From the NCBI GenBank assembly GCA_016235445.1, contig JACRLB010000029.1, forward strand, positions 62,001 to 126,000: a stretch of 64,000 bases of DNA, written 5' to 3'. The notes under the pieces are model-generated. The model saw only the letters and a program-made list of their open reading frames with translations, made no database searches and was not told the origin of the DNA. Positions 720-42,892 of the stretch are shown here, piece after piece; the first letter of the stretch is position 1, and each line of letters begins with the position of its first letter. The stretch comes from Chloroflexota bacterium. Lineage in GTDB: Bacteria; Chloroflexota; Anaerolineae; Anaerolineales; Villigracilaceae. Position numbers and translations under genes: made by a program.

Positions 720-2012
720 ATGAGTCGGATTGCTCTTTTAGCAGCGCTGATGTACCTGATCATCCTCGCTGGCGTTGGCATGTTGAACGGGGCGATGGTG
801 GCGCTGGCCTTGCCTTTGGTTTTGTATTTGCTTGCGGGCCTGTGGCGCGGGCCAGAGGAACTGCGTCTGACTGCCGAGCGAACCGTCAGCGCGGAAAGAA
901 TCGCGCCCGGTGATTCGGTCATCGTTGAATTAAAAGTCACAAATCATGGTGAGGCGTTGGAGCAGGTTCTGCTTCACGATCCACTGCCCGCTTTTCTTAC
1001 AGTTGTTGAAGGTTCGTCGAGTCGTTTGGTCAGCATCCCTGCGAACGAAAGCATTTCATGGTCATACACTTTGCAGGGCAGGCGCGGCAGTCATTACTTT
1101 GGCGAGATCAAAGCGACTGCTGAAGACCATTGGGGATTGATCATCAAACGCGCGGTTCTTCCCACAAGCGGACAGTTGCTCATCCTACCCCCAGTTTCCC
1201 GCGTCCGACACATTGCCATCCAACCCCGCCAGACTCGTGTGTACTCCGGGGTCATCCCCGCTCACCAGGGCGGGACGGGAATCGAATTCTTCGGCTTGCG
1301 CGAATATCAAATGGGCGACTCACCGCATCACATCAACTGGCGCGTATCCGCGAGACAGGACGGCGTGATCTATTCCAACGAATATGAACAGGAGCGCGTC
1401 GCAGACGTTGGCATTGTGCTGGATGGCAGGCGGCGCGTAAATGATTTCAGCGGCGGACGTTCAATCTTTGAAGATTCTGTCCTCGCCGCGGTGGCTGTCT
1501 CTTCTTCATTGCTGTCAGAGGGCAACCGCGTTGGTTTATTCATTTACGGCAAACGCAATAAATGGACATCGCCCGGCTATGGAAAATATCAACGCGAGCG
1601 TATCATGCAAGACCTTGCCCTGGCAGAGACGGGCGAAACCCAGAATTTCAAATCGTTGATCATTCCGCGCAGGCTGTTCCCGCCCAACTCGCAGATCATC
1701 CTCATCAGCCCGCTTGGGGGAGGGGAATTAAACCTGCTTTCACAGTTGCGTACACGCGGGTTTCAACTCATGGTCATCAGCCCCGACCCTGTCTCTTTTG
1801 AAGCCCGCGTCCTTGGCGACAGTCCTTCGGTAAAACTGGCGGCCCGCATTGCCAGGCTTCAACGCGAACTATTACTGCGGGAATTGCGCCATGCAGGCGT
1901 GCAGGCGATCAATTGGGATGTGGCTCTGCCTTTCGAGCAGGCGGTGCGCGCTTCGTTGAGTCGTCCGCCTGCATTTTTGCGCGCCATCCAGCGCGGGCGC
2001 GGAGCGGGGTGA
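720..2012 (+). CDS. DUF58 domain-containing membrane protein (alternative in-frame start 669)
   Basis: N-terminal TM segments and DUF58 core (GTGIEFFGLREYQMGDSPHHINWRVSARQDGVIYSNEYEQER); downstream of MoxR. Confidence 0.85.
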   Translation: MSRIALLAALMYLIILAGVGMLNGAMVALALPLVLYLLAGLWRGPEELRLTAERTVSAERIAPGDSVIVELKVTNHGEALEQVLLHDPLPAFLTVVEGSSSRLVSIPANESISWSYTLQGRRGSHYFGEIKATAEDHWGLIIKRAVLPTSGQLLILPPVSRVRHIAIQPRQTRVYSGVIPAHQGGTGIEFFGLREYQMGDSPHHINWRVSARQDGVIYSNEYEQERVADVGIVLDGRRRVNDFSGGRSIFEDSVLAAVAVSSSLLSEGNRVGLFIYGKRNKWTSPGYGKYQRERIMQDLALAETGETQNFKSLIIPRRLFPPNSQIILISPLGGGELNLLSQLRTRGFQLMVISPDPVSFEARVLGDSPSVKLAARIARLQRELLLRELRHAGVQAINWDVALPFEQAVRASLSRPPAFLRAIQRGRGAG

Positions 2013-2014
2013 AG

Positions 2015-2509
2015 ATGACGCGTAATTTTATTTATGCTTCGATCCTCGCCTGCGCTGGCACGTTGACCTATGGCCTCGCCGCCAATGATTACATTCCCCC
2101 GTCCATCACCGTTGCGCTTTTGGGCATTGCATGGATTGTCCTTTTCGCGCGAGGCTTGCATCGTTTCAGTGGGTTTGCGTTTGCGGTCTTCATCATCCTT
2201 TCCAGTGTTTCCCTCTGGGCCGATGTATCTCCCGTGCTGGCTTTGGCGGGCGTCATTTTTTCCCTGCTCGCATGGGATTTGACGAGATTTCATCAACGCC
2301 TGCAAATGACAAATAGCCAACAGGACACCCGTAAAATGGAACGCGCACATTTTGCACGCCTGACTCTTTTGATCGGTTTAAGTTTGTTGGGGTACTTTGC
2401 CGTCACCCGCATCCAGGTCACATTGACGTTTGGTTCGGCGGCCCTGCTGGCTCTTTTGGGAATTTGGGGAATCAGCGCACTGGTCTATCGCTTGCGCAGT
2501 CACGAATAA
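2015..2509 (+). CDS. Small multi-TM membrane protein
   Basis: ORF with ATG at 2015; hydrophobic; paralogous to 3234..3755 (xLFAWDLxxxxQxL motif). Confidence 0.65.
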   Translation: MTRNFIYASILACAGTLTYGLAANDYIPPSITVALLGIAWIVLFARGLHRFSGFAFAVFIILSSVSLWADVSPVLALAGVIFSLLAWDLTRFHQRLQMTNSQQDTRKMERAHFARLTLLIGLSLLGYFAVTRIQVTLTFGSAALLALLGIWGISALVYRLRSHE

Positions 2510-2510
2510 T

Positions 2511-2586
2511 CTCCCTCACCCTAGCCCTCTCCCGAAGGGAGAGGGGACTCCCTTCCCCGTCGGGGGAAGGGTTGGGGATGAGGGCG
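2511..2586. repeat. Palindromic repeat, CCCTCACCC...CTCTCCCGAAGGGAGAG family
   Basis: CCTCACCCTAGCCCTCTCCCGAAGGGAGAGGGG...; related copies at ~10440-10520, ~31610-31710 and ~60462-60500. Confidence 0.75.
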
Positions 2587-2593
2587 CGTATTC

Positions 2594-3124
2594 TCAATCA
2601 AAATAAATATTCAAATCCGAGCAATCAAAGCGGTTCCCACAATTTGGGCAACTGACTTTGCAGTTCTTTTCGTGCATCTCACTGCCGCAGCGGTCGCAGA
2701 CCCAAATTTTCCTGCTCTCGCCGCCGTCCTCGGCGGCGTTCCACACGATCTGCTTGAAAAGGGATTTATCAAACCTGCCAATATTATCCTTCCCCAGCTT
2801 TTCCACTTCTTTCATCACCAACTCGGCATCCTCGCGGAATTTCCTCACCTGAATTCCCCTGCAAACATCAGGCCAATCTTTCAGCCACTTCAAACTTCTT
2901 CCATAGACTTTGACCGCGCCTTCGTAATTCCCGCGCGTGATATGCAGATACGTCACCGCGATTTGCAAAATCCCCCGATACAACTCCCGCACTTCACCCG
3001 TCTCATCCTTCCACGCTGTTTCCAACTCTTCATGCGCCTCGAAGAATTTTCCCTCGTTAAATAATTTCATCCCTTCAATTGCCTGTGGGTGCAAAGCGCT
3101 CATACATTCACGCAAAGCATTCAT
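2594..3124 (-). CDS. DUF309-like protein with C-terminal zinc ribbon
   Basis: LFNEGKFFEAHEELETAWKDETGEVRELYRGILQIAVTYLHITRGNYEGAVKVY is DUF309-like; C-terminal CxxC...CxxC (VCDRCGSEMHEKNCKVSCPNCGNRF). Confidence 0.7.
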   Translation of the reverse strand: MNALRECMSALHPQAIEGMKLFNEGKFFEAHEELETAWKDETGEVRELYRGILQIAVTYLHITRGNYEGAVKVYGRSLKWLKDWPDVCRGIQVRKFREDAELVMKEVEKLGKDNIGRFDKSLFKQIVWNAAEDGGESRKIWVCDRCGSEMHEKNCKVSCPNCGNRFDCSDLNIYFD

Positions 3125-3198
3125 CTTTCAACCTTCAACTTTCATCCTTCATCCTTCATCCTTTATCCTTCATCCTTCATCCTTCATCTTTCAACTTT
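3125..3198. repeat. Short-period tandem repeat (CCTTCAT)n
   Basis: Repeated cttcatccttcatcc words. Confidence 0.8.
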
Positions 3199-3233
3199 TC
3201 CATTCGGCAGTATATCATGCGGCTTCTTTTCAA

Positions 3234-3755
3234 ATGGTAGAATTTGATGCGACTGCGGAGGTTAACTTGACGGGATTTGCCCTTGTATCCAGCATTATCA
3301 TCAGCACAGGTTCGCTTGCGTGGGGCTATGCCAGCATGGGGCTTGAAACTATCCCGCGTTGGATGATTGCTTTCGGCGCGCTGTGGCTGGTTTCCCTCTG
3401 GCAGGGTTGGAAGTGGTTTTCACCGCTTGGCTTATTTCTCTCTGTATTGTCTGCCATCCTTGGATTGTGGTTCAGTTTCCCCATCGGCTGGATGTTCAGC
3501 GGCGCGATCTTCGCCCTGTTCGCATGGGATATGGCGGAACTCCGCCAAAAATTACACTTTATGACTTCAAGGGATGATGTTAAAGGCGTGGCGCGCCGCC
3601 ACATTGCGCGGGTTAGTTTTCTCACCCTCGGCGGATTATTATTCGCATCCTTTTTGATCCTTTGGTGGCGGCAGTGGACAGATGAGTGGGGGATGTTTTT
3701 ACTGGGCGCAACTTTCATTGGGTCACTGCAAATCATTGCATGGTTTAGAAGGTGA
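3234..3755 (+). CDS. Small membrane protein, paralog of 2015..2509
   Basis: FALFAWDMAELRQKLHFMTSRDDVKGVARRHIARVSFL versus SLLAWDLTRFHQRLQMTNSQQDTRKMERAHFARLTLL. Confidence 0.6.
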   Translation: MVEFDATAEVNLTGFALVSSIIISTGSLAWGYASMGLETIPRWMIAFGALWLVSLWQGWKWFSPLGLFLSVLSAILGLWFSFPIGWMFSGAIFALFAWDMAELRQKLHFMTSRDDVKGVARRHIARVSFLTLGGLLFASFLILWWRQWTDEWGMFLLGATFIGSLQIIAWFRR

Positions 3756-3776
3756 CAGCCACTTTCAAAGTAACTG

Positions 3777-4346
3777 TCACCTGTGCTTCCCAAGCCACTC
3801 CTCCGCCTCGCGCGGATGCTTGAAATGAATCAATTCCAAATGCTCATGTTCAGGGAAAGACAGCAAAATCGGCGTTTCGCGTTTGCGCCGCCAATACGTT
3901 TTGAACAGCCAGTGGAACAACGAATCTGGCGACCACAATTTTAAGTGCGTCCAAAACGTTTCGCGGTTGGTTCCCCACAAAAGTTCCCTGGTCACGGCTC
4001 TTTGAATGGTGCGGGTGAGCAAACGCCAGAAGACAACATGGAACGGATAATCCAGCCAGATGACAGCCTGCGCCTTGGGCCAGATCAAATCCCGAACGAC
4101 ATGATAATTCCCCGCCACCACCCAGCCTGATTGATTCTCGCTCATTCCCCGCTCTGAGCTGGTGACTGTTTCGACGCGCTCTCGAAACGCCCCGATATCC
4201 GCCTCCTTCCAGTTTGGCTCCCAATGCAGTGCATCCAATTCAATAAAATCCAAATTGAACTTGTCTGCAATCCCTTTTGCCAAAGTGGATTTGCCCGATG
4301 AAGTTGTGCCAATCACAATGATTCTTTGATAGCGAAATGAGTTCAT
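3777..4346 (-). CDS. P-loop nucleoside/adenylate kinase-like protein
   Basis: MNSFRYQRIIVIGTTSSGKSTLAKGIADKFNLDFIELDALHWEPNW: Walker A and FlaR/adenylate kinase-like motifs. Confidence 0.7.
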   Translation of the reverse strand: MNSFRYQRIIVIGTTSSGKSTLAKGIADKFNLDFIELDALHWEPNWKEADIGAFRERVETVTSSERGMSENQSGWVVAGNYHVVRDLIWPKAQAVIWLDYPFHVVFWRLLTRTIQRAVTRELLWGTNRETFWTHLKLWSPDSLFHWLFKTYWRRKRETPILLSFPEHEHLELIHFKHPREAEEWLGKHR

Positions 4347-4413
4347 ATTTCGGGGAGTATAATTTGCCAATCGTAAATCGTAAATCAAAAATCGTAAATT
4401 CAAACGAGGTTCC

Positions 4414-5766
4414 ATGTTCGATCTCCCCGATGATGAAATTCTCCCGCTCTCGAAAGAACACGTTTTCTGGACGTGGTCTGCCCAGGCCAAAGTCAACCCC
4501 ATTGCCATCAAGCGCGCCAAAGGCGTGTACTTTTGGGATGTGGACGACAAACGCTATCTCGACTTCAACTCCATGACGATGTGTGTGAATATCGGCCACG
4601 GCGACGAGCGCGTCATCAAAGCCATGCAGGAGCAGGCCGCGGAATTACCCTACGCCGCGCCGGGCATGGCCACGAAAATCCGCGCGCTGGCGAGCAAGGT
4701 TGTGGCAGAGGTCACACCCAAAGGCGCGTTGAGCAAGGTGCTCTTCACCCTCGGCGGCGCGGATGCAAACGAGAACGCCATCAAACTAGCGCGCGGGTAC
4801 ACAAAACGCCACAAGATTTTATCCCGCTACCGTTCGTATCACGGCGCATCCGCTGGCGCGATGGCCGCCACAGGCGATCCGCGCCGCGTGGGCTGGGAAC
4901 CGAATTTGATGACGGGCGTAGTTCATTTCCTCGACCCATACCGCTATCGTTCCACCTTTCACCGCACGAATCCGAATATTTCAGAAGAGGATTTTGCGCG
5001 TGATTATTTGAATCATTTGGAAGAGATCATCCTCTACGAGGGACCTGAATCCATCGCCTCTATCTTGCTGGAAACTGTTACGGGGACGAATGGCATTATC
5101 ATCCCGCCGCAGGGCTACATGCAGGGAGTCCGCGCCTTGTGCGACAAATACGGCATCGTGATGATCTGCGACGAAGTCATGAGCGGCTTTGGCCGCACGG
5201 GCAAAATGTTTGCCATCGAACATTGGGACGTTGTGCCAGACATCATCACCATGGCAAAGGGACTCACGTCCGCGTATGCGCCGTTGGGGGCGGTGGCGAT
5301 GAAGCCTGAAATTGCCGCGGCTTTCGATGAACATGCCTTTGAAAGCGGACTGACGTATACCTCGCATCCCATTTCTTTGGCCGCGGCTGTGGCGAACATC
5401 CAAGTTATCAGGGAGGATAAAATCGTCGAGCAAGCGGCAGGCATGGGCGGAGTCTTGAGGCGCATGTTGACGGATCTCGGCGAGTCGCATCCATCCGTTG
5501 GGGAAGTCCGCAATATTGGTTTGTTCGGCATTATCGAACTGGTCAGGGATCGAAAAACGAAAGAGCCGATGACGCCGTGGAACGGGTCATCACCTGAGAT
5601 GGTTGCGCTGAGAAAATACTGTGTGGATAATGGTTTATTTTTGTACACCCACTGGCATACGGTTTTGATCATCCCGCCGCTGATTATCAGCGAGGAGCAA
5701 TTGAAGGAAGGCATGGATATTTTGGACAAGGCGCTGGAGATCACGGACAAGGCTGTGAAAAAATGA
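4414..5766 (+). CDS. Class III (PLP-dependent) aminotransferase
   Basis: YLDFNSMTMCVNIGHGDERV, MICDEVMSGFGRTGKMFAIEHWDVVPDIITMAKGLTSAYAPLGAV. Confidence 0.9.
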   Translation: MFDLPDDEILPLSKEHVFWTWSAQAKVNPIAIKRAKGVYFWDVDDKRYLDFNSMTMCVNIGHGDERVIKAMQEQAAELPYAAPGMATKIRALASKVVAEVTPKGALSKVLFTLGGADANENAIKLARGYTKRHKILSRYRSYHGASAGAMAATGDPRRVGWEPNLMTGVVHFLDPYRYRSTFHRTNPNISEEDFARDYLNHLEEIILYEGPESIASILLETVTGTNGIIIPPQGYMQGVRALCDKYGIVMICDEVMSGFGRTGKMFAIEHWDVVPDIITMAKGLTSAYAPLGAVAMKPEIAAAFDEHAFESGLTYTSHPISLAAAVANIQVIREDKIVEQAAGMGGVLRRMLTDLGESHPSVGEVRNIGLFGIIELVRDRKTKEPMTPWNGSSPEMVALRKYCVDNGLFLYTHWHTVLIIPPLIISEEQLKEGMDILDKALEITDKAVKK

Positions 5767-5797
5767 CGGCGCTGGACTTTATCAAAAATCGGTGAAA

Positions 5798-5831
5798 TAA
5801 AAACTCCTGCTTGAAAAGCAGGAGTTTTTTG
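5798..5831. terminator. Intrinsic terminator hairpin
   Basis: AAAAACTCCTGCTTGAAAAGCAGGAGTTTTTT. Confidence 0.85.
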
Positions 5832-5836
5832 TTTTT

Positions 5837-7861
5837 CTATGGAGTTGGCGCAGGCGGCGGGATGCGATGTTCGCCCGGGAGCAACGGCATTTCCGCCATG
5901 TAGTAGGCGTGTTCGTATGCCGCAATTCCTCCGCCTTCGCCGAGGATGGGTTCGATCAGCTCGTTGCCGTTGGTGTCTATGCCAAAGAGCGTTTGATTTG
6001 AGAGCGTTTGCATTTCGATGACGAGCGGCTCCATGGTACTGCCGAAGGGCATCTCTTGCAACAACAGGGCTTTTTCAAGAATCTGCCTGGACCAGCCGCG
6101 CATGTTTTCGATGCTGATGACAACATGAGCGCTGTGCATTTTTATATTTTCGGTGGCGTCCGCGGCCTCTGCCGCATATTGGACGTGGCTGATGGCGGTG
6201 GGGATGTAGCCTAACCCGTCTTGCGGGCCGTTCTCCAGCAAACCGAATCCATCGCCGGGGTCGTTGATTGTGCCGTTCCCGTTCCAGTCACGGTACTGAG
6301 TGGCGTTGGCGCTACCCACCAGTTGATTGATGATCTCCTCGGTTTTCAAACGGAAGAGTTCTTCGTCATTGTCTTTGAAGGCCTGGTTCAATGCGATGAT
6401 GGAGTTGTCTATTTCGTCGGCGGCGTACCATAATCCCTGGATCAATGCCTCGTCATTTGGAGCGCCGTGAAAGGATACAAGCACATGCCGCGCGTGGATC
6501 AATGCCTGCGGCGGAAATACAGAGGATGCCACAACATCTGTGGACGGTTCGTCCGGGTTTGGGTCATTGTCCGATTCGATTGTAATTTCCACCTGGTCGA
6601 AGGATGCGAAGATGTTCTCCTGGCCTGGGTGGGTAAAAGATAATTGTCCCTCGGAGGCGTCATCCATTGAAATTTTGCCGACGTTGCGCCGTACCTCTCC
6701 CCCCTCTGCCAGATACCACACCTCATAATGGGCGCCCGCTTTTGGTTCGGGCAGGCCGGAGAGCGTGACAGTGACCTTGTCCATCACGGCGTTGAAGTCT
6801 AAAAAGGAAGCGCGCCCCACTGTCTGGTTATCATCCAGCGAAGCGATTGGGGCTGGCCGAAATATGAAAAAGACAATTCCCAGAATTGCCAGAACGCCGG
6901 CCCCGAGCCAAACGAACTTAAGAGACGGCCTGGCTTTTACCTCAGGCTTGGGCAGTTCGGATTGTTTCAATGAATTTGCGGTATCGATGGAGATCGTCTG
7001 CCCATTGAATACGGCCATGAATTCATCCGCCATCTCTTTGGCTGAATCGTATCGAAGGTTTGAATCTTTGGACAAGGCGCGGTTGATAACGGCTTGCAGG
7101 TCTTTTGAAATCCCCTGGATGGGCGGGGGCGGCTCGTTCAGGTGCTTCATCAAAATACCGAAGGATGATTCTGCATCAAATGGGACGGCGCCGGCGAGCA
7201 TTTCATAAAGCACCACGCCAAGCGAGTAGATGTCGGTCTTGCGATCCACCCTGTCGCCGCGCGCCTGTTCGGGGCTCATGTAGGCGGGCGTGCCGGAGAC
7301 GGTACCTGTCGAGGTTTGGATGGATGAATCGAGCAGGCGCACCAGCCCAAAGTCGGTAAGAACGGGTTCTACATCTTCGGGCAAAGGCTCATCCACGTTC
7401 ACATATCCAGTGACAGAACGCAGGAGAATATTTGCAGGTTTGATATCGCGATGAATGATATTTTGTTTGTGGGCATAATCAATGGCAGAGGCAAGCGCAG
7501 AAAGGATATGGGAAATCATATCCATCGAAAGCTTTTCCCCTTTTTTGTGCAGTGTCTTGAGGTAGCTTCCGAGGGTGGCGCCATCCACCAGTTCCATGAT
7601 GAGGCAGGGCTGGCCTTCCACGAGGTCGTAATCATACATTTGAATGATATTGGGATGACGCAGGCTTGCCACAACACGCGCCTCGCGCTCGAAGCGCATC
7701 CGTGTTTCAGGGTCCCCATCCACGTGGTCGCGCATGATCTTAACCGCCACCTTGCGGTTGAGCGAGGTGTGCTCGCCGAAATATACTTCGGCCATGCCCC
7801 CGCGCGCGATCATTTCGCCAATTTGAACTTTGTTGAGGGTTTTACCTGTCCATGCGGGCAT
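5837..7861 (-). CDS. Ser/Thr protein kinase with TM segment and C-terminal RskA (anti-sigma-K)-like extracellular domain
   Basis: [52 protein letters not shown]; then [21 protein letters not shown]... Confidence 0.85.
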
Positions 7862-9879: not shown

Positions 9880-9959
9880 TTTGGATTTACGATTTTTGAT
9901 TTACGATTGATGACTGACGACTGAGTGTTTTCTAGCTGTGTTGAGCCATGATTTACGTT

Positions 9960-10376: not shown

Positions 10377-10420
10377 GAGTTCTCCAAGTAAACAGGTAAA
10401 CAAGTACACACGAGTGTTCA

Positions 10421-10566
10421 TGCAATGGTTGTCAGCATCCCCCTTTTCCCTCACCCCAATTATGAAGACTTTTCACCGTGTCGACTCCCCCCTCTCCCGA
10501 TGGGAGAGGGCAGGGTGAGGGGTTCACTGCGCAGCATTCAATCTGCCTCCCCTGACAACCATTGCA
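10421..10566. repeat. MITE-like element with 15-bp perfect TIR TGCAATGGTTGTCAG / CTGACAACCATTGCA
   Basis: TIRs read directly; interior CCCTCACCCC..CTCTCCC..GGGAGAGGGCAGGGTGAGGGG; homologous to 31590..31749. Confidence 0.8.
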
Positions 10567-16973: not shown

Positions 16974-17940
16974 TTTGAACGCGGTAACTTTCCTTTCACC
17001 TGTGTTAGAAGAAATCAAACTCGTTGAAGAACGAATGCGCGCCCAGGCCGATGAATCTCATCCCGACCTGCGCGCCGCGCTCGAGCATTTGCTCGCGGCT
17101 GGAGGCAAGCGCATCCGCCCCACCCTCGGCCTGCTCGTTGGCAACATGCTGGGTGCGCCCCTTGAAAAACTCGTCACCCTCGGCGCGGCTGTTGAATTAT
17201 TGCACACCGCAACGCTGGTGCATGACGACCTGATCGACGGCTCCCTGCTTCGCCGCGGCATGGCCACGCTGAATGCGCGCTGGTCGCCGCCCGCCACCGT
17301 GTTGACAGGCGACTATCTTTTTGCGCGAGCCGCAAAACTTGCCGCCGAAACCGATCACCTGCCTTTGATGAAATTATTTTCAGAAACGCTCGCGACCATC
17401 GTCAACGGCGAACTGACGCAAATGTTCACCTCGCGCGGGTTGATCAGCCGCGACAATTATTACAAACGCATTTACGCCAAGACCGCATCCCTGTTTGAAA
17501 TGACTTCGCGCGCCGCGGCCATGGTCAGCCCTGCAAATGAAGAGACGATTGAATCCATGCGCGATTTCGGATATCAGATCGGTGTGGCCTTCCAGATCGT
17601 GGACGACATCCTCGACTTTAATGGCGATCAAAATGCAGTCGGCAAACCGCTCGGTTCGGACCTGTTGAATGGTCTGGTGACCCTGCCAGCCATTTACTAC
17701 GCTGAGGCCAATCCGACGGACGCCGATGTCGCATCCCTGCCCAATGGCGGCTGGACCAACAACGACAACATGACCCGCCTCGTGGATAACATCCGCATGA
17801 GTGATGCCTCCAAGAAAGCCATGCTCGAAGCCGAACAGCACATAGACCGCGCTCTCGCCTGCCTCGATTCGATGGACTCCTGCGTCGAATGCGAAGCCCT
17901 GGAAAACCTTGCCAAATATATTGTAGATAGAAAAGTGTAA
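16957..17940 (+). CDS. Polyprenyl synthetase family protein
   Basis: GGKRIRPTLGLLVG, LVHDDLIDGSLLRRG, FQIVDDILDFNGDQNAVGKPLGSDL; may start a little downstream of 16957. Confidence 0.92.
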   Translation: MHGETDLNAVTFLSPVLEEIKLVEERMRAQADESHPDLRAALEHLLAAGGKRIRPTLGLLVGNMLGAPLEKLVTLGAAVELLHTATLVHDDLIDGSLLRRGMATLNARWSPPATVLTGDYLFARAAKLAAETDHLPLMKLFSETLATIVNGELTQMFTSRGLISRDNYYKRIYAKTASLFEMTSRAAAMVSPANEETIESMRDFGYQIGVAFQIVDDILDFNGDQNAVGKPLGSDLLNGLVTLPAIYYAEANPTDADVASLPNGGWTNNDNMTRLVDNIRMSDASKKAMLEAEQHIDRALACLDSMDSCVECEALENLAKYIVDRKV

Positions 17941-24301: not shown

Positions 24302-26155
24302 ATGAACGAGAATATCCTTATCGCCATCGCCTGGCCATACTCAAATGCCGAGATACATGTTGGGAATATCACGGGTTCCCACTTGCCCGGTGACATTGTT
24401 GCGCGCTACCACCGCCTGCAAGGGAACAAAGTCCTCGTGGTGTCAGGCACGGATTCGCATGGCACACCCGTTGTCATCGCCGCGGACAAAGAGGGCAAGC
24501 CCGTCGAGGAAGTCTACAAAAAATATCACAACTCCTTCATCGAAGTCTTCAAAGGCTACGGCATCACCTACGATATGTTCACCACCACGCACAGCGAGAA
24601 TCATTTCAAGGTCTCGCAGGCCATGTTCCTTGCCTTGCAAAAAAACGGATTTCTTTTCAAGCAGTTCAGCAAGCAGTGGTACTCACCCAGCGCGGACAAG
24701 TTCCTGCCTGACCGCTACGTCGAAGGGACTTGTTACATCTGCGGCTTCGAAGGCGCGCGCTCCGATCAATGCGACAACTGCGGCAACGTATTGGAGCCAG
24801 AGAAATTAATTAATCCGCGCGCCAAGACTGGCGACGGCGCACTCGAACTGCGCGACACCGAACATTTTTATCTCGATCTTTCCAAGCTCGAGCCTGATGT
24901 GAAAAACTTTTTAAAGGAACGCGCCCCGCACATGCGCGACACCGTCATCGGCGAGTCACTGCGCAAGATCGAAAGCGAAGGACTCAAAGCCCGCTCGATC
25001 ACACGCGACCTCGATTGGGGCATCCCCGTTCCCGTCGAAGGCTGGACGGAAGCAGGCAAGCGCATTTACGTTTGGTTCGAAGCAGTCATCGGCTACCTCT
25101 CCGCCCCCATTGAGTGGAGTCAACTTCAAGCGTCCTCCCTGAGCGGAGGGGAGAGTAGCGACCCGAAGTCGAAGGGCGATGCGTGGCGCGATTGGTGGAC
25201 GAATCCCAACGCGAAGCAATTCCACTTTATCGGCAAGGACAACATCTTCTTCCACACATCGCAATGGCCTGCTGAATTAATGGGCGCAGGCAGCGCGTTC
25301 ATGGAAATCTTCGCAGGAGAAGAAGTTCCATTGACCCTGCCGTATGATGTGCCCGCCAATCAGTTCATGAACCTCGAAGGAAAAAAGATCAGCGGTTCGG
25401 GCAATTGGGGCGTGTGGGGACTCGACGCGCTGACGCGTTTCGACCCCGATGCCCTGCGTTATTACCTGACCGTCAACATGCCCGAAGCAAAGGACAGCGA
25501 TTGGGATTGGGCTGAGTTCGTGGCGCGCAACAACAACGAACTGGTAGCCACGTGGGGCAACCTTGCAAACCGCGTACTGGCATTTTGTTACAAGAATTGG
25601 GATGGGCAAGTTCCTGATGTGCCCTTCGACACGGCTCAGGGTGCGCTCGCGCTTCGCGACTCCGACCTGAGCCTGCTCGCCACCATCGAAAATGGATTCA
25701 ACACTGTGGGCGCAGAACTCGAAGCCGTGCGTCTGCGCTCTGCATTAAGCGAGACGATGAAACTTGCCACGGTCGTCAATCAATATCTGGATGTCAACGC
25801 GCCGTGGTCTGCCATCAAAGTGGATAAAGCCGAAGCGGGCAAAACAGTCTACACCGCGCTCAAAGCCATTGACTCGCTCAAGGTCATGTTCTCCCCCTTC
25901 CTGCCCTTCACCTGCGAAAAACTGCACAGCTTCTTCAACTACGAAACTCCCCTCTTCGGCGAGCAATACACCGAGACGGTTAAAGACTCGCTCGGCGAGC
26001 ATACGGTATTGCGTTATCGCCCTTCGACTTCGCTCAGGGTGCAATGGAAGCCCAGCGACTTACAGCCCGGGAAGAAGTTGAATCAACCTGCTCCGCTGTT
26101 TAAGAAGTTGGAGGAGAGTGTGATTGAGGAGGAACGAGCGAGATTGGGGAAATAA
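24302..26155 (+). CDS. metG: Methionyl-tRNA synthetase
   Basis: NILIAIAWPYSNAEIHVGNITGSHLPGDIVARYHRLQGN; CYICGFEGARSDQCDNCGN; FIGKDNIFFHTSQWPAELMG; LEGKKISGSGNWGVW. Confidence 0.95.
   Translation: MNENILIAIAWPYSNAEIHVGNITGSHLPGDIVARYHRLQGNKVLVVSGTDSHGTPVVIAADKEGKPVEEVYKKYHNSFIEVFKGYGITYDMFTTTHSENHFKVSQAMFLALQKNGFLFKQFSKQWYSPSADKFLPDRYVEGTCYICGFEGARSDQCDNCGNVLEPEKLINPRAKTGDGALELRDTEHFYLDLSKLEPDVKNFLKERAPHMRDTVIGESLRKIESEGLKARSITRDLDWGIPVPVEGWTEAGKRIYVWFEAVIGYLSAPIEWSQLQASSLSGGESSDPKSKGDAWRDWWTNPNAKQFHFIGKDNIFFHTSQWPAELMGAGSAFMEIFAGEEVPLTLPYDVPANQFMNLEGKKISGSGNWGVWGLDALTRFDPDALRYYLTVNMPEAKDSDWDWAEFVARNNNELVATWGNLANRVLAFCYKNWDGQVPDVPFDTAQGALALRDSDLSLLATIENGFNTVGAELEAVRLRSALSETMKLATVVNQYLDVNAPWSAIKVDKAEAGKTVYTALKAIDSLKVMFSPFLPFTCEKLHSFFNYETPLFGEQYTETVKDSLGEHTVLRYRPSTSLRVQWKPSDLQPGKKLNQPAPLFKKLEESVIEEERARLGK
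26042..26155 (+). repeat. 114-bp direct repeat, copy 1 (functional metG 3' end)
   Basis: caatggaagcccagcgacttacagcccgggaag...ggggaaataa; about 93% identical to 26791..26904. Confidence 0.95.
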
Positions 26156-26187
26156 TTCCCGTGCTATAATCTCTTTAGAGGTGTCCC

Positions 26188-26415
26188 ATGACTCTTGTAA
26201 CTTATGAAGGTGTTGTCCAAAAAGGCAGTATCCTTTTGAATGAAGGGGTACAACTGCCTGAGAATGCGAAGGTATATGTGGTTATCACCGAAGAAGTGAT
26301 CCGCGTGATGATTGATGGAAAGAAACCTATACAAATTCTTTCGCCCCATTTTGCCCGGCGTGAAGATGCGGCCCATTTCGAGTTAACCGTCACCGAGAAA
26401 AAACCCAATGCCTGA
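26188..26415 (+). CDS. Small DUF104/AbrB-like (antitoxin-like) protein
   Basis: VTYEGVVQKGSILLNEGVQLPENAKVYVVITEE matches the general DUF104/AF2212-like pattern; overlaps the next ORF by 8 nt. Confidence 0.6.
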   Translation: MTLVTYEGVVQKGSILLNEGVQLPENAKVYVVITEEVIRVMIDGKKPIQILSPHFARREDAAHFELTVTEKKPNA

Positions 26416-26788
26416 GTACGACGCTGAAAATTACAATCCACCTGCGCCAGTTGCTTATGTGACTCTTCGGAATCCTGCAACTGGCGCTGTATTATCCAAC
26501 GTCCCCATGTTAATTGACACAGGTTCAGATACCACCTTACTGCCGTCCGATGTTGTCGAAAAACTTGGGGTGAAGGCTGAAGAAGATAATGGCTTTGAAG
26601 TTCAAGTATTTGACGGCGATACTAAATTCTTAAGGGTTGTAAAACTCGATTTGTTGGTTCTTGATAAAACATTTAGGGGGGAGTATTTGCTGATCGACCG
26701 CTCCATTGGGATTTTGGGAAGAAATATTTTAAATAATGTTCGGATTCAGTTTGACGGCCCACGCAGAAAATGGAACGAGCAGAAATAA
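26408..26788 (+). CDS. Retropepsin-like aspartyl protease family protein
   Basis: VPMLIDTGSDTTLLPSDVVEKLG (DTG active-site motif) and IGILGRNILNNVRIQFDG. Confidence 0.8.
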   Translation: MPEYDAENYNPPAPVAYVTLRNPATGAVLSNVPMLIDTGSDTTLLPSDVVEKLGVKAEEDNGFEVQVFDGDTKFLRVVKLDLLVLDKTFRGEYLLIDRSIGILGRNILNNVRIQFDGPRRKWNEQK

Positions 26789-26790
26789 TT

Positions 26791-26904
26791 CAATGGAAAC
26801 CCAGCGACTTACAGCCCGGGAAGAAGTTGAATCAACCTGCTCCGCTGTTTAAGAAGTTGGATGAGAGTGTGATTGAAGAGGAACGGGCAAGGTTAGGAAA
26901 ATAA
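26791..26904 (+). pseudogene. Detached second copy of the metG 3' end (114 bp, frame and stop intact)
   Basis: Encodes QWKPSDLQPGKKLNQPAPLFKKLDESVIEEERARLGK*; 8 differences from 26042..26155, all at codon position 3. Confidence 0.92.
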
Positions 26905-26909
26905 AAATT

Positions 26910-26942
26910 AAAATCGGATGTCGCTGTGACATCCGATTTTTT
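26910..26942. terminator. Intrinsic terminator, probably the original metG terminator
   Basis: AAAATCGGATGTCGCTGTGACATCCGATTTTTT. Confidence 0.85.
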
Positions 26943-39806: not shown

Positions 39807-40087
39807 AGACTGTTCCTTAACTAGCCACCTGACACTTTGTTTTTTTGGACGCAGATGAACGCTGAAAACGCTGATTCAAACCGTTTTGCTCTTGTTTTTC
39901 AAAAAATTTGCGTTCATCTGCGTCCCATTTTTAAAACTGTCAGGTGGGTAGTTTCTTAACTCTTTTTTTGAACACCGACAGCACGGAGTAGACTGAAATT
40001 CACGGAAAAACCCATAATAAAAGCCGCTCTTTTCCGTAACATCCGTGTACAAAAAATAAGGCGATAAGAACTTAAGAAACGCCCTCT
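39807..40087. repeat. Element B, copy 2, interrupted by element A (39822..39951)
   Basis: agactgttccttaac | element A | tttcttaactcttttttt...cttaagaaacgccctct. Confidence 0.75.
39822..39951. mobile_element. MITE-like element A, copy 1 (130 bp) with imperfect 9-bp TSD ttccttaac / tttcttaac
   Basis: TIR TAGCCACCTGACA / TGTCAGGTGGGTAG; near-identical to 42756..42885. Confidence 0.85.
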
Positions 40088-42722: not shown

Positions 42723-42755
42723 TTTTATTAACACGAAGGCAGTCTTTCTTCTTTC

Positions 42756-42885
42756 TAGCCACCTGACACTTTGTTTTTTTGGACGCAGATGAACGCTGAA
42801 AACGCTGATTCAAACCGTTTTGCTTTTGTTTTTCAAAAAATCTGCGTTTATCTGCGTCCCGTTTTTAAAACTGTCAGGTGGGTAG
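42756..42885. mobile_element. MITE-like element A, copy 2 (130 bp) with perfect 9-bp TSD tcttctttc
   Basis: TIR TAGCCACCTGACA / TGTCAGGTGGGTAG; flanks 42747-42755 and 42886-42894 both tcttctttc. Confidence 0.9.
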
Positions 42886-42892
42886 TCTTCTT

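Follow-up and report, generated by a model that had tools for sequence, protein, structure and literature searches.

A two-gene cassette between two metG 3' ends in a Chloroflexota bacterium, and displaced gene tails at other core genes

Introduction

Regeneration of a gene end upon insertion has a precedent in a protein gene, icd, where prophage e14 brings it about (PMC6379469). At E. coli icd, both e14 and phage 21 bring a recoded 3' end and displace the resident one, which persists as the pseudogene icdC; the differences between the two ends fall nearly all at third codon positions and include an Asp/Glu exchange. The same features are found at the locus described here, a cassette of two small genes lying at the 3' end of metG, the gene coding for methionyl-tRNA synthetase. 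However, e14 is a 15-kb prophage that possesses its own integrase (intE) and a single target gene, whereas the cassette spans 0.6 kb, carries no recombinase and has several targets. The first-pass annotation of this DNA had presented end regeneration as a habit of elements integrating at tRNA genes, here transferred to a synthetase gene; e14 represents a precedent in a protein gene.

A similar anatomy has been described for C-terminal duplications in fungal mitochondria, i.e., in atp6 of Allomyces and in atp6, atp9, cox2, and nad3 of Glomus (PMC3630166). There too, mobile ORFs supply a foreign C-terminal end in frame and the native end is displaced downstream, with a largely synonymous divergence and in several genes; those ORFs, however, encode LAGLIDADG or GIY-YIG homing endonucleases, whereas the cassette specifies an antitoxin-like protein together with an aspartic protease. 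The Neisseria minimal mobile elements (PMC3082526) resemble the cassette in that varied whole-gene cassettes without mobility genes occupy one site and move by homologous recombination; they differ in having conserved genes on both sides, whereas the homology of the cassette resides in the duplicated tail and its downstream neighbour is not conserved. Lastly, gene-end duplications of 109-950 bp, for which a single crossover was inferred, arose in E. coli conjugation from circular molecules in which the cloned lacZ end was incomplete (PMC3240628), although in that case a laboratory construct in one species was concerned.

As to its content, the cassette can be compared to type II toxin-antitoxin modules (BrnT/BrnA, AF2212-like, HicB), with which it shares two small overlapping genes, a DNA-binding first gene and swapped N-terminal domains; BrnT/BrnA even occupies the same sites. 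It departs from them in its second gene, which codes for a retropepsin-like protease: a 2009 survey of type II systems mentions zinc proteases, but neither retropepsins nor COG5550. Thus, the anatomy of the metG cassette is known from e14/icd and from the fungal mobile ORFs, and the absence of a recombinase or endonuclease sets it apart.

Results

Structure of the metG locus

The window, that is, the whole stretch of 64,000 nucleotides that was analysed, belongs to the genome labelled G000; the features of the metG locus are listed in Table 1. The gene is intact and its product of 617 residues matches the Pfam family tRNA-synt_1g (E 2e-129). The repeat search retrieved the two 114-nt copies of its end with an identity of 93%, and blastn of one flank against the other gave an E value of 8e-46, which excludes a chance match. 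Once aligned by codon, the copies differ at eight sites, distributed 0/0/8 over the three codon positions; seven of the changes are synonymous and one replaces Glu with Asp. The detached copy retains frame and stop, and the arms of the terminator located 3' of it lie at 26910-26922 and 26928-26940. The 635-bp insert between the two ends harbors ORF1 and ORF2 only, which overlap by 8 nt. These data confirm what the first-pass annotation had reported, namely a repeated metG end differing exclusively at third positions, a detached copy with frame, stop and strong terminator, and a cargo of about 635 bp devoid of an integrase.

Table 1. Features of the metG locus and their coordinates in the window
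Feature	Position	Strand	Evidence
Working metG (methionyl-tRNA synthetase), its 3' end regenerated	24302..26155	+	ORF; Pfam/NCBIfam matches; present in nearly all relatives
Attached metG end (QWKPSDLQ...ERARLGK*), which probably came in along with the cassette	26042..26155	+	114-nt repeat; 8 third-position differences
Cassette leader directly after the metG stop, promoter-like TGCTATAAT (TATAAT at 26165-26170) plus RBS	26156..26187	+	Leader shared with relatives
ORF1, 75 aa, antitoxin-like (AF2212/AbrB-like N-terminus)	26188..26415	+	Alignment; domain matches of homologues
ORF2, 126 aa, predicted retropepsin-like aspartic protease (DTGSD, ILGRNIL)	26408..26788	+	Pfam; AlphaFold/Foldseek
Detached metG end, displaced resident 3' end	26791..26904	+	Repeat; the terminator after it follows metG in empty-site relatives
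Original metG intrinsic terminator	26910..26940	+	Perfect 13-bp inverted repeat and T-run; homologous in G048, G072 and G002

Other repeats were observed in the window. Palindromic units of the CCCTTCGACTTCGCTCAGGG type lie in frame within the variable linkers of metG (25137-25180, 25621-25644, and 26019-26042), and one of them has its end precisely where the 114-bp repeat has its left border. A MITE-like 132-nt repeat (97%) with terminal CCACCTGACA/TGTCAGGTGG palindromes occupies two intergenic regions (39821-39952 and 42755-42886), and tandem repeats of 119 and 51 nt (455-789) extend into the start of an ORF at 669.

The two genes of the cassette

The same leader follows the stop codon of the gene in G001, G002, G049, G050, and G057, and portions of it recur at ffh and glnS. 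The structure model of ORF1 (pLDDT 62) is too weak for use; the alignment of its homologues revealed a C-terminal motif conserved around SPH/SPR..REDA/PEQA..F, with the C-terminal half preserved around (S/T)PR-L-x-x-(R/P)-E-Q-A. The N-terminal half resembles AF2212-like antitoxins: the homologue in L182 matches PF01954 with an E value of 0.0011, just short of the curated cut-off, and in the homologue in L179 this half is a HicB ribbon-helix-helix domain (PF05534, 2.6e-9). Antitoxins combine interchangeable DNA-binding halves with a constant partner-binding half; the swapped N-terminal halves and the constant C-terminal half of the ORF1 family therefore suggest that ORF1 and ORF2 likely constitute a toxin-antitoxin-like module, with putative toxin and antitoxin activities.

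ORF2 matches PF13975 (1.2e-6) and PF13650 (2.4e-6), the Pfam families being gag-asp_proteas and Asp_protease_2, with TIGR03698 below cut-off. Its DTGSD motif occupies residues 37-41; the aspartic active-site motif is present in all but one of 22 homologues, in which G39 and D41 are invariant and D37 nearly so. Foldseek searches with the AlphaFold model (pLDDT 78) retrieved the retropepsin-like proteases of EIAV (E 1.6e-5), XMRV, and Rickettsia. The D-T/S-G motif and the predicted retropepsin fold assign ORF2 to the small retropepsin-like peptidases of clan AA. In PADLOC, ORF2 weakly matches PDC-M08B (E 2.6e-7), a candidate defence family that forms one component of the candidate system PDC-M08, and no match was obtained for ORF1; the Rfam search of the region returned no RNA family, and no relative was found in the phage, plasmid, and viral collections.

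The metG locus in related genomes

The metG gene was located in 52 of the 57 genomes of the genus, and the downstream DNA was taken where contigs allowed. With a metG-tail profile, we recovered displaced tails downstream of the gene from ten genomes (G000, G002, G008, G009, G041, G043, G049, G050, which has two, G057, and G068), that is, in about ten among some 50 congeners. What lies between the tails is mostly the ORF1/ORF2 cassette (hereafter AspP) or a truncated form of it; the alternative contents are a BrnT/BrnA pair replacing it in G008, two regulator-like genes in G009, sigma-factor-like genes, or nothing, as at the displaced tail of G068. Among the inserts examined beside metG, none contained a gene for an integrase, transposase, or other recombinase. 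In G001 and G017 the cassette lies behind metG and no relic tail was detected. The upstream neighbours of metG are conserved and the downstream ones are not. In L113 (G050, 1422-7060), two displaced tails enclose a response regulator and a hybrid histidine kinase, which are the genes lying upstream of metG in the window.

Empty sites, as well as further genomes with two metG ends around a cargo, had been proposed as checks, and both were found. The metG gene of G048, like that of G062, the empty sister of G008, leads directly into the terminator that trails the relic in occupied genomes, so that the detached copy represents the original end, as had been supposed. In the metG tree the occupied genomes are scattered and stand beside empty sisters. 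Moreover, G000 and G002 share 88% identity in the cargo and 77% in metG, which indicates horizontal transfer.

Which of the two ends is foreign

Differences at third codon positions prevail in the other tail pairs too (2/3/11 in G057, 3/1/11 for the second copy of G050, 1/0/10 in G043, and 3/0/10 at ffh of G353). This pattern implies that both ends diverged as coding sequences before one became a relic; having diverged as working genes, one of them would have been imported. In the near relatives G048, G019, and G068, the detached copy was matched at 16 of 24 informative cells and the attached one at 3; among the wider sisters of G000 the counts were 29 and 20, respectively, and for G002 the direction was reversed. 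The intact relative nearest to the attached end is G001, itself a cassette carrier, and no donor genome with matching tail and cassette was identified. The idea of the first-pass annotation that foreign DNA brought a diverged end is thus upheld as regards the insertion and the third-position divergence, while the comparison of each copy with related metG genes gives moderate support to the attached, working end as the foreign one. Incongruence between gene body and tail was rejected as diagnostic: the correlation of the metG tail with the rest of the gene is low (0.40), but that of another block is lower still (0.38).

The cassette behind other core genes

Beyond what the first-pass annotation had noticed, the cassette is not confined to metG. 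In other genera of the family, it lies directly behind glnS (L141/L164), about 150 nt behind ffh (L142/L166), and directly behind a methyltransferase gene (L145), with duplicates of the gene end beyond it of 92, 110, and 33 bp, respectively. Behind pntAA it was found in a metagenome-derived Blastocatellia genome, where the duplicated gene end measures 154 bp (92%). In G413, BrnT/BrnA is found at ffh together with a 67-bp ffh relic, so that two toxin-antitoxin-like families (AspP and BrnT/BrnA) each occur at both metG and ffh with a displaced tail.

At glnS, KIEKKGS*, the native terminus that the empty sister G342 also has, is retained in the relic; the working gene ends in KKRL*, with a stop codon overlapping the TATAAT of the cassette. 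The relic is therefore the original end, and an imported working end is likely on the whole. As a rule, no more than about 10 nt separate the stop codon of the last inserted gene from the start of the displaced tail.

Many cassette copies have no flanking tail. Nor is the tail signature a universal trait: several loci of the genus away from metG are bordered by repeats other than gene ends, palindromic ones in L125/L064 and a probable transposon remnant in L126.

Frequency of displaced tails

A scan of 1.58 Mb (six stretches of five related genomes, 1404 genes) gave 11 tail matches, about nine of which are displaced tails and not paralogues. Control scans retrieved nine head-of-gene matches at five genes, partly repeats, and three mid-gene matches; the bias of displaced copies to gene tails over heads is accordingly modest. 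Candidates in L103 and L215 turned out to be tandem paralogues, and those in L228/L229 CRISPR arrays.

Two of the displaced tails are located in G000:C4. There, lon (L206, 10332-12800 in reverse-strand coordinates) has a displaced 89-bp tail (93%, relic at 17100-17188) 4.3 kb downstream, past an inserted ABC-transporter operon. On the same strand of that contig, a large gene ending at 9948 (L209) is followed by an MNT-type nucleotidyltransferase gene (PF01909) and by a 43-bp duplicate of its own end (10404-10446), which begins 2 nt past the nucleotidyltransferase stop. In G043, one contig has three lon tails, spaced by about 1.4 and 2.5 kb and separate from the complete lon gene (search coordinates only, G043:C145:19893-23972 and G043:C16:15012-15134); they may represent insertions stacked in an array.

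As a positive control, the same scan applied to 300 kb of E. coli MG1655 recovered icd/e14 (165 bp at 92.7%, with differences of 1/0/11 by codon position and Asp/Glu changes). In addition, a 144-bp kdpE tail (90%; K-12 NC_000913.3, 716720-716863, L326) lies beyond speF-potE, where the pseudogene ybfI is annotated, and no integrase lies in between; it looks like an insertion of the same form as that at metG. These two examples imply that tail displacement is not limited to Chloroflexota.

Discussion

The insertion at metG, the regeneration of the gene end, the displaced original end, the empty sites, and the recurrence at metG and four other genes are well documented by the observations reported above. 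The explanation that we favour, with a probability of roughly 60%, is a horizontal acquisition in which host homologous recombination brought in a donor gene tail together with the cassette, with no recombinase on board. As donor we infer a related Anaerolineales bacterium, from which the cassette would have been acquired along with the metG 3' end; as route, recombination within the metG tail, which would provide the resident gene with the tail and cassette of the donor and leave its former tail and terminator on the far side. Entry might have occurred by a single crossover of a circularised tail-plus-cassette fragment or, alternatively, by a double crossover via the flanking tail copies; in either case, later transfer or clean loss could use the two tails as homology arms. 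Since the displaced tails start so close to the last inserted stop, illegitimate joining at random points fails to explain the pattern: either transfer favours compact units or joining takes place at non-random points. Also weighing against the favoured reading are the failure to identify a matching donor, the polarity of the foreign end, which is equivocal with the wider sisters and reversed in G002, and the many cassette copies that carry no flanking tail.

A different possibility is site-specific integration in the manner of e14 and phage 21, with a recombinase that cuts in trans at the start of the conserved tail and is encoded elsewhere or lost, the element bringing the remainder of the gene. 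The signature recovered at icd matches that of metG, and the displaced metG tails begin at one point (CAATGGAAACCC) with AspP and BrnT/BrnA cargo alike. This point, however, lies right at the border of a hypervariable linker and may only mark where homology begins; in addition, metG, glnS, ffh, pntAA, and lon share no obvious sequence, and the inserts beside metG, of only about 0.6 kb, were found to lack an integrase. We regard such an integration as unlikely.

Slightly less probable in our opinion is a duplication of the host's own tail at insertion (a long target-site or break-repair duplication), with the differences introduced later by exchange with relatives. The ffh tails of G413 and G290 are nearly identical (1/67 and 2/68 differences, respectively), the former also fitting such an event, and short palindromic repeats lie between duplicated ffh tails; on the other hand, the differences in G000, G057, G043, G050, and at ffh of G353 are mostly synonymous, even though a relic is presumably free of selection.

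A single old tandem duplication, embedding the cargo, inherited vertically, often lost, and with copies homogenised by gene conversion, would account for copies that are often of one lineage type (e.g., ENEVIDVER twice in both G057 and G002), but the cargo of G000 and G002 is closer than their metG genes, cargo differs at one site, and the cassette lies behind unrelated genes and in another phylum; the unrelated insertion sites largely refute this explanation, which we hold to be very improbable. Lastly, most of the genomes are metagenome assemblies, but the chance of an assembly or binning artefact is negligible, given that the layout recurs in many independent assemblies with differing sequences and in the finished E. 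coli MG1655.

Under the favoured reading of acquisition by host recombination, the recurrence of the cassette behind other core genes suggests that small genes need not carry an integration enzyme in order to spread. Tentatively, and at somewhat less than even odds, small cassettes, especially toxin-antitoxin-like pairs, might represent a recombinase-free class of mobile DNA, which would use the last 50-150 bp of a host core gene as a portable homology arm, spread from species to species by host recombination there, and occasionally switch to a new gene. This would offer a handle on how toxin-antitoxin pairs and other small genes without mobility functions move between chromosomes. Displaced tails are readable scars, which show where an insertion took place and what the original end was, and can point to the donor lineage; they make gene-tail-anchored transfer countable across genomes and explain some short gene-end pseudogenes, such as the kdpE tail at ybfI in E. 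coli K-12. If the broader proposal is true, gene-tail capture would be a general and overlooked route of horizontal transfer in bacteria.
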